Program-made: the position numbers and the translations under genes
Shown: positions 6,996-37,282 of the stretch, piece after piece
How positions within the stretch are numbered: the stretch's first letter is position 1
How the letters are laid out: each line of letters opens with the position of its first letter
The notes under the pieces: generated by a model
Told to the model about the DNA's origin: nothing
Databases searched by the model: none
What the model saw: only the letters and a program-made list of their open reading frames with translations
NCBI GenBank assembly: GCA_943788425.1
Contig: CALSQF010000013.1
Location: 1 to 57,477 of the forward strand
Reading direction: 5' to 3'
Length of the DNA: 57,477 nt
DNA from: an uncultured Planktomarina sp.
Lineage (GTDB): Bacteria > Pseudomonadota > Alphaproteobacteria > Rhodobacterales > Rhodobacteraceae

Positions 6996-7567
6996 TTTGT
7001 GCGGCCCTATTATTGAGAACTCGCATCTAATTGCTGGTGTAGCCTAAATCTATGCGCTCAATAATTGACGCCACTTAGCGAGAGCGGCAGCGCGGTTCAG
7101 CTTGAAGTTGGTGCGTGAATAAAGATGCAGTTACCAAACAAAACAATCCCCCAATGAATCTACAACGCTAATATTAAAGGCCCGTGGTCCGAGACGCGGG
7201 GCCCTGGGATAGGGACGGGGCGGTCCTGCGCCCTACGTCTCAACTGCAGCGATCAGGCACAGTAACCCTTGCCGTTGATCCACGGACCGCGGCCCGAGCA
7301 AAACTAACACAACGCTGATTGAGCTCGTGCAACCCCGACAGATAGGTCGACAATACTAGCTCCCATGCCCATGGCCCTTGGCACCATGTCGGGGGTATTT
7401 TGATGGAACTACCATGGATATTGTTTTCTTCTTGGAAGGAGGTTCAATCTTGGAGGCTTCAAGTGTGACTGCAAAACTTTACCTCATAGATGGACGCCTC
7501 AATTATGCCTTTGCCTCTGCGCCTCTGACAGGATTTTTCATTGCGACCTGTGACAAGTTTTAACATT
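6996..7567. other. Non-coding stretch with possible transposase-tail remnant
   Basis: No convincing gene is visible. On the reverse strand a short open stretch ending with TAG at 7050-7052 reads FKLNRAAALAKWRQLLSA at its end; it looks like a transposase or integrase C-terminus, but only about 25 residues remain and the family is not identified. An inverted repeat ATTATTGAG/CTCAATAAT spans 7009-7065. GC-rich imperfect inverted arms flank 7180-7300 (GTGGTCCG versus CGGACC). An ORF at 7378-7563 lacks a ribosome site and recognisable content. Confidence 0.4.
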
Positions 7568-7675
7568 ATGACCAAACTCTCAACCATCCCACAGCACCAA
7601 CTCGGCACCACCTGCGGCCTCTGTAAGCACCATACTATGCTAGAGAAAAGAGCCAGTCTATTTTTGAAAAACTAA
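7568..7675 (+). pseudogene. N-terminal fragment of a small CxxC zinc-ribbon-like protein
   Basis: ATG at 7568 opens a 35-codon frame with TTCGLCKH at residues 14-21, a single CxxC zinc knuckle, ending in an unrelated tail and TAA. Two-CxxC proteins of this type normally continue with a second knuckle of the form RARCxxCG. Exactly such a piece occurs twice downstream (8047-8184 and 8691-8803), separated from this start by unrelated genes. I read this as the severed 5' part of one gene. The resemblance to a known small-protein family is from memory and unverified; the frame could also be an independent mini-gene. Confidence 0.45.
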
Positions 7676-7941
7676 AAACTAGCTAAAATATCGCCTTCGC
7701 AAACAGATACTATTACGGAGCCATTTTCAGCTGCTACTCCCTCTCTAACCCTTACCAAGGCTGCGTGGGCAGTTTCCTTATCTGGCCAAACCATCATACT
7801 TCTTGCTGTGGTCGGACTGGTCTGCACATAGAAAAAGTTAACCGCACCTAAGGATTTGAACTCTAATATATACTCGTTCTGTTTGTCGTAGAAGTTTTCC
7901 GGTATTGAATCGAATGACCAATCAGCTGATGTTGCAAACAT
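7672..7941 (-). CDS. Hypothetical protein, 89 aa
   Basis: I do not recognise this gene. It encodes an 89-residue soluble, acidic protein without membrane segments or cysteine clusters; the pattern of alternating hydrophobic residues (NFFYVQTS, GSVIVSVCEGD) suggests a small alpha/beta or ferredoxin-like dimer fold, though that is a guess. A good ribosome site (GGAG) lies eight bases before ATG 7941, which supports a real gene. It lies convergent to, and overlaps by four bases, the zinc-ribbon N-terminal fragment, and is followed on the other side by the first repeat copy. It is AT-rich, like the rest of this island. Confidence 0.65.
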   Translation of the reverse strand: MFATSADWSFDSIPENFYDKQNEYILEFKSLGAVNFFYVQTSPTTARSMMVWPDKETAHAALVRVREGVAAENGSVIVSVCEGDILASF

Positions 7942-8046
7942 TTCATTTTCTCCATTAATAACAACGTGGAAAAGTTATGATAGTTAAACATGTTTGATCA
8001 AGTCTATATCTTAGAGTGGTAATCATAGTCATAACGACAACTTAGA

Positions 8047-8184
8047 AGGTACGTCAGAGAGCCAGATGCCATAACTGTGGCGTGAAGGGTAACAACACGT
8101 ATCAGATCGTTTACACGGGTAATTCAAGTAGTCGGAGACTACGCCTCCTTGATGTTGCGATGGATGGTGCTGGGGTTAGGTAGC
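8047..8184 (+). repeat. Direct repeat copy A: zinc-ribbon C-terminal coding tail
   Basis: The 135 bases 8047-8181 match 8691-8801 nearly base for base except for a 24-base insertion (aligned at 8121-8150). In frame they encode RQRARCHNCGVKGNNTYQIV and then the tail DVAMDGAGVR before TAG (8182-8184 region); the 24-base insertion adds eight codons without breaking the frame. A TAG at 8043-8045 lies just upstream in frame and no good start is seen, so this copy is a gene fragment unless GTG inside it is used. The insertion contains a perfect hairpin GTAGTC-GGA-GACTAC (8128-8142). Confidence 0.8.
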
Positions 8185-8197
8185 ACTAATCAAAACT

Positions 8198-8581
8198 TCA
8201 CATAAAGCCCCAGATTGATCCAAGTTGAGTAACTGCGACGCCGCCGAACATAACTGTAACGACCGCCTTAAACATTCCCCAAGGAGCCTTCCTAAACTTC
8301 GCACCAAAATTTGTCGCTGCCTCATCGGCATCCATATCGTCTGCGTTGGCTTTAAGGTCATCCATGCAGTCAAATGAGTTTATCATTACAAAAACGAATG
8401 TAGCTACAATCATTGCTGATATTGCAAGTGTTGGTAAGCGACCAGCTTGTGCAATAATAAACAAAGTGACCAAATTGCTTAGAGTTCCAATAGTAAAGCC
8501 CCAATATAAATCACGACCTCTAGTGGCTCCATTACGTTGACGACGATCACGATCAGAAGTAGAATTCATTAAGTTCGTCAT
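8198..8581 (-). CDS. Hypothetical membrane protein, 127 aa
   Basis: I do not recognise this gene. The product has a charged N-terminus (SDRDRRQRNGATRGRD), two close hydrophobic segments (about residues 30-48 and 50-70), an acidic cytoplasmic-looking loop rich in Asp (DDLKANADDMDADEA) and a third hydrophobic stretch (about 103-125). A GGAG ribosome site precedes ATG 8581 by six bases. An 8-base inverted repeat GATTATAA/TTATAATC (8611-8632) lies 30 bases upstream and overlaps a possible -10, so it may be self-regulated. It sits exactly between the two direct-repeat copies. Confidence 0.65.
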   Translation of the reverse strand: MTNLMNSTSDRDRRQRNGATRGRDLYWGFTIGTLSNLVTLFIIAQAGRLPTLAISAMIVATFVFVMINSFDCMDDLKANADDMDADEAATNFGAKFRKAPWGMFKAVVTVMFGGVAVTQLGSIWGFM

Positions 8582-8690
8582 TATTCACTCCATTTTGAAA
8601 GCTAACTGTTGATTATAATGCATGTTATAATCGTTCAAACCAGTTTAATTTTTGCATCGCTTTTTGGTGAATCACCCTGTCCTGCTAACG

Positions 8691-8803
8691 AGGTACGTCA
8701 GAGAGCCAGATGCCATAACTGCGGCGTGAAGGGTAACAACACGTATCAGATCGTTTACACGGGTAACTCTGATGTTGCGATGGATGGGGCTGGGGTTAGG
8801 TGA
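8691..8803 (+). repeat. Direct repeat copy B: zinc-ribbon C-terminal coding tail
   Basis: Bases 8691-8801 repeat copy A without the 24-base insertion and end with TGA (8801-8803). The frame EVRQRARCHNCGVKGNNTYQ extends upstream to an ATG at 8609. The residues just before the repeat (GESPCPAN) could still belong to the same protein, but the first 15-20 residues overlap the promoter of the 127-residue gene and look unrelated. Keeping the same frame and stop position in both copies indicates coding ancestry rather than a non-coding repeat. Confidence 0.8.
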
Positions 8804-8888: not shown

Positions 8889-8940
8889 CGTGTGTGGTTG
8901 ACGTGTGTGGTTAACGTGTGTGGTTAACGTGTGTGGTAGC
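8889..8940. repeat. Tandem repeat, 13 bases x 4
   Basis: Four units of CGTGTGTGGTTAA start at 8889, 8902, 8915 and 8928. The two central units are identical; the first ends in GA and the last in AGC. The array lies about 60 bases past the 3' end of tRNA-Ser, at the edge of the AT-rich island. Units contain GTTAAC at their junctions. No coding role is apparent. Confidence 0.85.
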
Positions 8941-9001
8941 TAGTTCAGTAACATCCAAAAAATCGTTTATTTTTAATAATATAAACACAGGTTTGGGTGG
9001 G

Positions 9002-9091
9002 TGGCGGAGACGAAGGGATTCGAACCCTCGAGACCCTTCCGGGCCTACTCCCTTAGCAGGGGAGCGCCTTCGTCCACTCGGCCACGTCTCC
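9002..9091 (-). tRNA. tRNA-Ser (GCT anticodon)
   Basis: The reverse strand folds as a class II tRNA: 5' arm GGAGACG pairs with CGTCTCC before the encoded discriminator and CCA (9004-9002). The anticodon stem CTCCC/GGGAG encloses loop CTGCTAA with anticodon GCT at 9057-9055. A long variable arm follows, then a T-loop GGTTCGAATCC. It decodes AGC/AGU serine codons. The 3' end faces the AT-rich accessory segment, a common integration position; I see no second copy of the tRNA 3' end within the window. Confidence 0.97.
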
Positions 9092-36731: not shown

Positions 36732-37282
36732 GTATCTTTACCAGGTTTTGGAGCAGCCTTTTTAGCCGCAGATTTTTTGGGCGTCGCCGATTTTTTCGCA
36801 GCCGCTGGTTTCTTGGCTGCCGCAGGTTTCTTAGCAGCCGCAAGTTTCTTAGCCGGCGCGGGTTTTTTAGCTGCCGCAGGTTTTTGGGTCTCCTTGGAGG
36901 CCACGGCCTTCGTCACTTTTTCCGCGTCAAGGCGCTGCTGCGCTCTTTCAGCCATGGCATCATGCATTTTCTTGGCTTTTTCAGCCCGCTCTTCTGACAG
37001 TTTTCCAATTTCAGATCCCGGTACGAAATCTTTCCACTTGGTGGTCGGATCCGAGACGCTGCGCACCCCGTCTTTGAGAGAGTTGACCGAGTCCATCGCA
37101 TCTTTCACGCCCGCATCATCAGCAGCGTCGTTCATCGCCCGGCTGAAATCACGGGCCATGGCCTTGGCTTTACCGACAAATTGACCAATTTTGCGAAACA
37201 CGCCGGGCAATTCTTTAGGACCGATGACAATCAGCCCCACGACAGCCGCGACCAGTATCTCAGCCCATCCCAATCCAAACAT
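36728..37282 (-). CDS. tatB: Sec-independent translocase subunit TatB
   Basis: The 184-residue protein has the TatB N-terminus [20 protein letters not shown] (residues 3-22, with the conserved Glu), the [12 protein letters not shown] hinge and a long amphipathic helix. The C-terminal 55 residues are an Ala/Lys/Pro tract of AAAKKP-like repeats coded by a repetitive DNA stretch (about 36735-36890). Such histone-like tails vary between strains and could promote slippage at the DNA level. Confidence 0.94.

Follow-up and report, generated by a model that had tools for sequence, protein, structure and literature searches.

Small genes between fragments of a dispersed zinc-ribbon gene in Planktomarina: a possible cassette array exchanged through gene-fragment homology

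Introduction

The DNA analyzed here, referred to throughout as the window, is a contig of 57,477 nucleotides from an uncultured Planktomarina sp. (CALSQF010000013.1). At one place in it a small zinc-ribbon gene, which we call ZnR, is present as one N-terminal piece and two copies of its C-terminal tail, with a small unrelated gene in each gap. This raises the question of how single genes come to lie between fragments of one other gene, and whether the arrangement is an accident of one locus or one instance of something more general. Genomes and loci other than the window are given by our G and L numbers.

Layout of the window locus

Between positions 7568 and 8801 the window reads as a ZnR N-piece, a leftward gene of 89 amino acids, a C-tail, a leftward gene of 127 amino acids, and a second C-tail (Table 1). 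The preliminary description had given this order, N, cargo 1, C, cargo 2, C, and the parts are found where it placed them. Its account of the cargo genes as short, leftward, AT-rich, and supplied with ribosome sites also holds, with 42.6 and 42.7% GC against 53.6% for the window and GGAG before ATG. The boundaries changed somewhat: of the N fragment drawn at 7568-7675, only 7568-7645 (q3-80) is family specific, and 7646-7675 is unrelated sequence in the same open frame; the tails lie where 8047-8184 and 8691-8803 had been proposed, with their exact ends corrected to 8047-8181 and 8690-8801.

Table 1. Features of the window around the ZnR pieces
Feature	Position	Strand	Remarks
61-codon open frame	7378..7563	+	ends ...CDKF; stop 4 nt before ZnR
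ZnR N-piece, q3-80	7568..7645	+	92% identity to L045 copy
Cargo 1, 89 aa	7672..7941	-	
Operator-like leader of cargo 1, ACCACTCTAAGATATAGACTTGATC	7996..8020	-	matrix score 26.9 (one of the 14 sites used to build the scoring matrix); pattern match with 2 mismatches
ZnR C-tail 1, q127-237	8047..8181	+	contains 24-nt in-frame insert, 8126-8149
Cargo 2, 127 aa	8198..8581	-	membrane-like by eye; also in L062 array
Weak operator-like site upstream of cargo 2	8637..8661	-	matrix score 10.7
ZnR C-tail 2, q126-237	8690..8801	+	96% identity to L045 copy
tRNA-Ser(gct)	9002..9091	-	borders variable block

The N-piece starts with ATGACC, as do other copies with an intact left end, and a frame with the CDKF ending also precedes ZnR in L069/L160. 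The two tails match each other over 79 nt at 97% and then over 32 nt at 97%, and besides an 18-nt array this pair is the only direct-repeat family of at least 40 nt in the 57-kb window (14-nt seeds). About 45 nt, q81-125, are absent from both the N-piece and the tails, so that N and C do not add up to a whole gene here. Three inverted repeats of at least 18 nt lie between 5000 and 12000, none of which brackets a unit; no transposase was found around the units, whose cargo proteins have no Pfam match, and besides tRNAs no RNA families were found.

The insert within tail 1 is AAGTAGTCGGAGACTACGCCTCCT, and the same or a similar insert stands at that place in L057, L060, L061, and L062; another mini-insert was seen by eye near the q113 split point in G165 L192. 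A tandem 13-nt repeat (CGTGTGTGGTTAA) occupies 8889-8937, between tail 2 and the tRNA-Ser, and a GTGTGTGGTT stretch resembling it follows a ZnR end at about 13670 in G011 L148.

ZnR is a dispersed gene of the genus

The intact form of ZnR is about 78 codons in one open frame, MTKLSTIPQHQLSITCGLCKHHTML...CHNCGVKGNNTYQIVYTGNSDVAMDGA. A query combining the N-piece and the tail finds copies in which both form such a frame, and the 11 distinct near-full copies, together with distant homologues in other genera, bear out the earlier assignment of the N- and C-pieces to one gene family. Differences among the near-full copies fall on third codon positions 2.2 to 3.2 times as often as on either of the others, indicating that ZnR encodes, or until recently encoded, a real protein. 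A CxxC ... CxxC pattern is conserved in the aligned small ZnR proteins, in keeping with a predicted zinc ribbon, and the Pfam families CpXC and Zn_ribbon_4 match below cut-off only. Structure models have a mean pLDDT of 46 for ZnR and 53 for cargo 1, too low for a structure search.

With the full 245-nt L045 query at E 0.01, there are 15 ZnR matches in the window's own genome, 20 in G011 (one contig of 3.29 Mb, which we take to be P. temperata RCA23), and at least 27 in G003, where 40 of 42 candidates were scored. A search with the tail at E 0.001, scoring at most 14 candidates per genome, found matches in at least 10 of 61 genomes, all of the same genus. A protein-level search of 295 family genomes matched ZnR in 13, of which 11 belong to other genera; nine of these 11 have a single match, and identities are 30 to 56% apart from one of 83% (G313). 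ZnR is thus a dispersed element of the genus Planktomarina, present mostly as truncated copies. A phage or plasmid origin was considered and rejected, there being no match among phage or plasmid records; one viral contig did match.

Other repeats in the array regions

The regions that hold ZnR arrays contain further repeats. Window 6999-7132 is another dispersed repeat, with 24 matches in array stretches (itself included); in L268 it reads like the terminus of an IS240-type DDE transposase (Pfam DDE_Tnp_IS240, below cut-off), and these repeats are therefore probably relic IS ends. Two more dispersed families of about 130 to 150 bp, resembling gene fragments, are represented by L038 9149-9298 and L153 4276-4405. 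A 1.17-kb sequence is present four times in array regions of G011 at 99.8 to 100% identity (L148 13750-14923, L149 1551-2730, L150 8363-9540, and L151 8586-9760) and is likely a recently active IS. The 18-nt repeat array of the window (36765-36890) probably codes for an alanine/lysine-rich stretch, histone-H1-like by eye.

Breakpoints within ZnR

We compared copies from the window and 54 loci, with 120 copies placed and 102 distinct after removal of duplicates. The set includes 19 of the 29 loci from one search together with L200; several of the 10 omitted loci duplicate regions covered by G003 or G006 stretches, and overlap with L152 and L158 led us to omit L221 and L222. Twenty-three copies begin at q4 or earlier, at or next to ATGACC, and differ in their upstream sequence. 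The 13-nt zone q108-120 holds 24 of the 76 internal starts (those beyond q20); in 20,000 uniform draws the fullest 13-nt window held 11.2 on average and never more than 20. Of the 50 ends located at or before q200, 12 lie in q103-118. Since the copies are related, this clustering is indicative only.

The preliminary description had proposed repeated insertion at one point of one gene. The clustered breakpoints agree with a preferred point, but not with one gene hit repeatedly in place: what is found instead is a genus-wide element, with 102 distinct copies in the stretches examined, whose units appear to be exchanged between loci.

Cargo genes and their operator-like leader

Neither cargo 1 nor cargo 2 has a match in Pfam, NCBIfam, PHROGs, or PADLOC, and no PADLOC match that would point to a defense role was found for six proteins. 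The closest homologue of cargo 1 is 56% identical (G005), with weaker ones of 29 to 45% in other genomes of the genus. Neighboring ZnR copies 150 to 1600 bp apart define 42 intervals with a median of 565 bp, a set in which repeated cargos are counted and which is not independent. The largest open reading frame is antisense to ZnR in 23 intervals and sense in 16, with none in three, and some of the longer intervals contain larger genes. There are 14 intervals that run from an N-piece to a C-piece; 12 have an open frame, antisense to ZnR in 11, and these represent seven distinct cargos, MAPEG being present four times and GYD three times. Intervals of this kind measuring 401 to 546 bp with one antisense gene recur, and single-gene units each with one repeat copy are present in L062 and in many of the 42 intervals. 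Families in or beside arrays include MAPEG, GYD, DUF3303, DUF1330, DUF3764, DUF6854, and AlaE, with SnoaL_2 below cut-off.

Many cargos start with a 25-nt motif near ACCACTTCAATATTTAGACTAGATT, often 9 to 16 nt from a tail. It is clear upstream of cargo 1 and weak upstream of cargo 2. In 21 of the 42 intervals a motif scoring at least 16 lies near one end (16 reading leftward and 5 rightward), a count that is partly circular because the matrix was built from 14 such sites; the other 21 are without a strong match. With 1 to 3 mismatches the motif is also present outside the arrays: in G003 L246 it stands in the space between HxlR and the DUF3764-, cupin-, and SnoaL-like genes (assignments of these three below the Pfam cut-off) from which the regulator diverges, and in G000 L262 it separates HxlR from a DUF3764-like gene; a similar HxlR and DUF3764-/cupin-/SnoaL-like arrangement with the motif is present, by resemblance, in another genus (G165 L240). 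We infer from these neighborhoods that the leader is a predicted operator of the HxlR family. Searched as a plain pattern allowing 3 mismatches, the motif has 44 matches in eight genomes versus 64 for a reversed control, 36 versus 25 in the array-rich G000, G001, G003, and G011, and 6 versus 7 in G000 alone.

Apparent exchange of units between loci

The preliminary description had suggested a search for other cargo genes between the repeats, and these are found at L062 (FZLS01000154.1), which repeats the layout and holds further cargo: N, MAPEG, C, cargo 2, C, a DUF3764 gene, what by eye is the remnant of a tail, a gene of 90 aa, and C. The cargo 2 unit of L062 differs from window 8075-8750 by 2 mismatches in 676 nt (99.7% identity), and the homology breaks inside tail 1 on the left and inside tail 2 on the right, with different sequences beyond. 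In the wider set, 49 pairs among the 102 distinct copies have one flank in common (identity of at least 0.78) and the other different (at most 0.55). Nine of the 49 have a switch inside ZnR at an LLR of at least 4, a threshold that is uncalibrated and applied to pairs that are not independent; the other 40 are below it. The nine switch points are scattered, at q40, 65, 138, 145, 154, 158, 191, 191, and 210. Of 115 long blocks of homology that array loci share, several likewise start or stop at ZnR copies, as for L148 4142-4872 with L163 and L148 4779-5568 with L151.

The reading that we favor, at slightly less than even confidence, is a small cassette array built on dispersed ZnR fragments, with units exchanged between loci and strains through the homology of their flanking ZnR pieces. 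Its basis is observed: a dispersed element, clustered breakpoints, a common cargo unit with switched flanks, and switches inside ZnR. The typical unit would hold a single small gene; many of these genes would run antisense to ZnR, and many would have an operator-like leader of their own. The ZnR fragments on either side would supply the homology for exchange, and a unit would enter with parts of its flanking tails, the crossovers falling inside them. The motor is presumably RecA-type homologous recombination, probably acting on incoming DNA. The first entry of a gene into ZnR near q113 would be a separate event, perhaps illegitimate joining or the action of a tyrosine integrase, and if the leader is an HxlR-family operator, a unit may join the same regulon wherever it is inserted. 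Of these steps, exchange by homology through the tails has the best support; alone, it does not account for different cargos entering near the same point, nor for copies with intact left ends starting at or next to ATGACC. The cassette-like reading of the preliminary description was thus right in kind and extends wider than one locus.

Tyrosine integrases beside ZnR tails

The layout had been described as lacking a visible recombinase, which is correct for the window locus but not elsewhere, where DUF6538 tyrosine integrases abut ZnR tails. Proteins with a DUF6538 domain that also match Phage_integrase have their 3' end beside a tail in G011 L152 (the same block being present in G003 L158), in G165 L189, and in a viral contig (L200), that is, in three genomes of two genera and one viral contig. 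The L189 integrase is 63% identical to that of L152, and the L200 integrase is from a distant family, with a Phage_integrase match below cut-off. G165 has an integrase followed by a ZnR piece (residues 26-59), an RDD gene, and a second ZnR piece (residues 38-64), each piece facing the end of the preceding gene.

It is conceivable, if unlikely, that such an integrase drives the arrays: a DUF6538 recombinase would recognize a site in the 3' half of ZnR and insert single genes near q113, a tail would be left at each junction, and homologous exchange would be secondary. The piece-gene-piece order in G165 and the clustering of breakpoints at q2-4 and q108-120 are consistent with this, and we retain it mainly because of the integrases that adjoin tails. 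The scattered switch points argue against it, as does the absence, by eye, of a common core or a constant duplication at the junctions; the window locus is without an integrase, and none stands at an element end next to an att site in the window block. We note also that, compared with L163, the L200 integrase has roughly its final six codons replaced at the junction, which resembles an illegitimate join, and that in L163 itself 2.8 kb separate the integrase from the closest ZnR piece; the DUF6538 integrases may therefore be ordinary cargo. Rather unlikely, in our estimate, is the broader proposal of a platform independent of IntI and attC and spanning at least two genera, in which DUF6538 recombinases would collect single genes at a site in ZnR and a common HxlR-type operator would bring them into one regulon.

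The tRNA-Ser locus and possible islands

The flank of the window locus was matched in 14 of 20 genomes of the genus, and seven of the 14 were compared. In all seven, homology with the window begins at 8978-9002; to the left of this only ZnR pieces match, with the addition of the cargo 1 leader in G003. The preliminary description had called for a search for empty sites in relatives, and none was found at this locus among the seven, in all of which the left flank of the window is absent as well.

A border at a tRNA gene would also fit a history in which integrative islands or satellites accumulated and decayed, ZnR being an island end gene and the array what is left of several islands that landed next to one another, for instance at tRNA-Ser. 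In G017 L226 the same tRNA is accompanied by a ZnR relic that contains an in-frame stop, a distant ZnR homologue stands beside a tRNA-Ser/ychF-like pair in G118 L177 (by eye from the frames), and L200 carries a VapE-like protein in addition to its integrase. We nonetheless regard this account as quite unlikely, as only small genes without phage or defense family matches lie between the ZnR pieces of the window, and no tRNA was found in 12 of 24 array stretches of 8 to 19.5 kb.

Decay and attC sites as alternatives

Ordinary decay, in which a multicopy gene is broken by IS elements, deletions, and duplications and the regularity is due to chance, would explain the many copies truncated at varied points and the IS240-like transposase remnants and other repeats of the same regions. 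It is very unlikely and already disfavored in view of the clustering of internal starts, the recurrence of N-to-C intervals of 401 to 546 bp with one antisense gene, and the finding that one cargo unit stands between tails in two genomes at near identity and with different neighbors.

That the arrays are clusters of attC sites without an integrase (CALINs), with the ZnR tail as the attC site, is scarcely credible and likewise disfavored: TIGR02249 was above cut-off in none of 21 genomes (13 of this genus; G165 not among the 21), DNA folds of 10 stretches gave z values from -1.32 to +1.10, the tail lies within a gene with a coding pattern of third-codon differences, and the switch points are scattered. 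The likeness consists in one gene per repeat, a tail length near 110 to 125 nt, tail ends that pair in the predicted fold of two tails (L151 and L053), and, at the tail end, a GTTAGGT, or ACCTAAC in the opposite orientation, that resembles the R-box consensus. By eye, GTTAGGT is found at one end of several tails and there is no constant box at the other end. The ends AACCCCAGCCC/GGGCTGTGG pair in some tails in an R/L-box-like manner, and this candidate was rejected since the folds are no better than shuffles and the copies differ; an AAC and GTT junction signal was dropped because AC can come from ZnR itself. A fixed crossover point at the repeat end was not seen, the nine resolvable switches among 49 pairs (at the uncalibrated threshold) being spread over q40-210. 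Scattered switch points, no IntI above cut-off in the 21 genomes, and no attC-like fold together favor homologous recombination in the tails over an integron crossover.

Implications and relation to known systems

If the reading of ZnR arrays as exchanged cassettes is correct, there would be a gene-cassette economy in pelagic bacteria that uses fragments of a protein-coding gene in place of attC sites, and in which the exchanged units often carry their own operator. The arrays would be a concrete case of how marine genomes gain or swap single small genes without integrons, and they pose the question of the motor, homologous exchange or a phage-type integrase.

We found no published description of ZnR arrays in the open-licence literature. 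Related processes are described for other systems. In homology-facilitated illegitimate recombination during DNA uptake (PMC3240628), incoming DNA would be anchored in one repeat copy and its other side would join at variable points; here the breakpoints may point to such joins. The islands mobilized between short direct repeats without a recombinase of their own (PMC5426353) are similar in that DNA lies between repeats and the unit has no site-specific recombinase, and they differ from ZnR arrays, which have many small units, one repeat family, and a repeat that is a gene fragment. A further comparison is with islands or satellites of the integrative kind that carry a tyrosine integrase and a VapE-like protein; these meet the arrays where an integrase 3' end adjoins a ZnR tail, in the three genomes and the viral contig, whereas the window units are without such genes.

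Integron arrays consist of small genes in line beside repeat copies, with cargo reshuffled between genomes and units near 600 bp. ZnR arrays resemble them and CALINs in all of these respects, the lined-up small genes each by a repeat copy, the reshuffled cargo, and the unit size of about 600 bp. They differ in having no IntI above cut-off and no attC-like fold, and in that the repeat is part of a protein-coding gene, the switch points are scattered, and many of the cargos carry an operator-like leader of their own.
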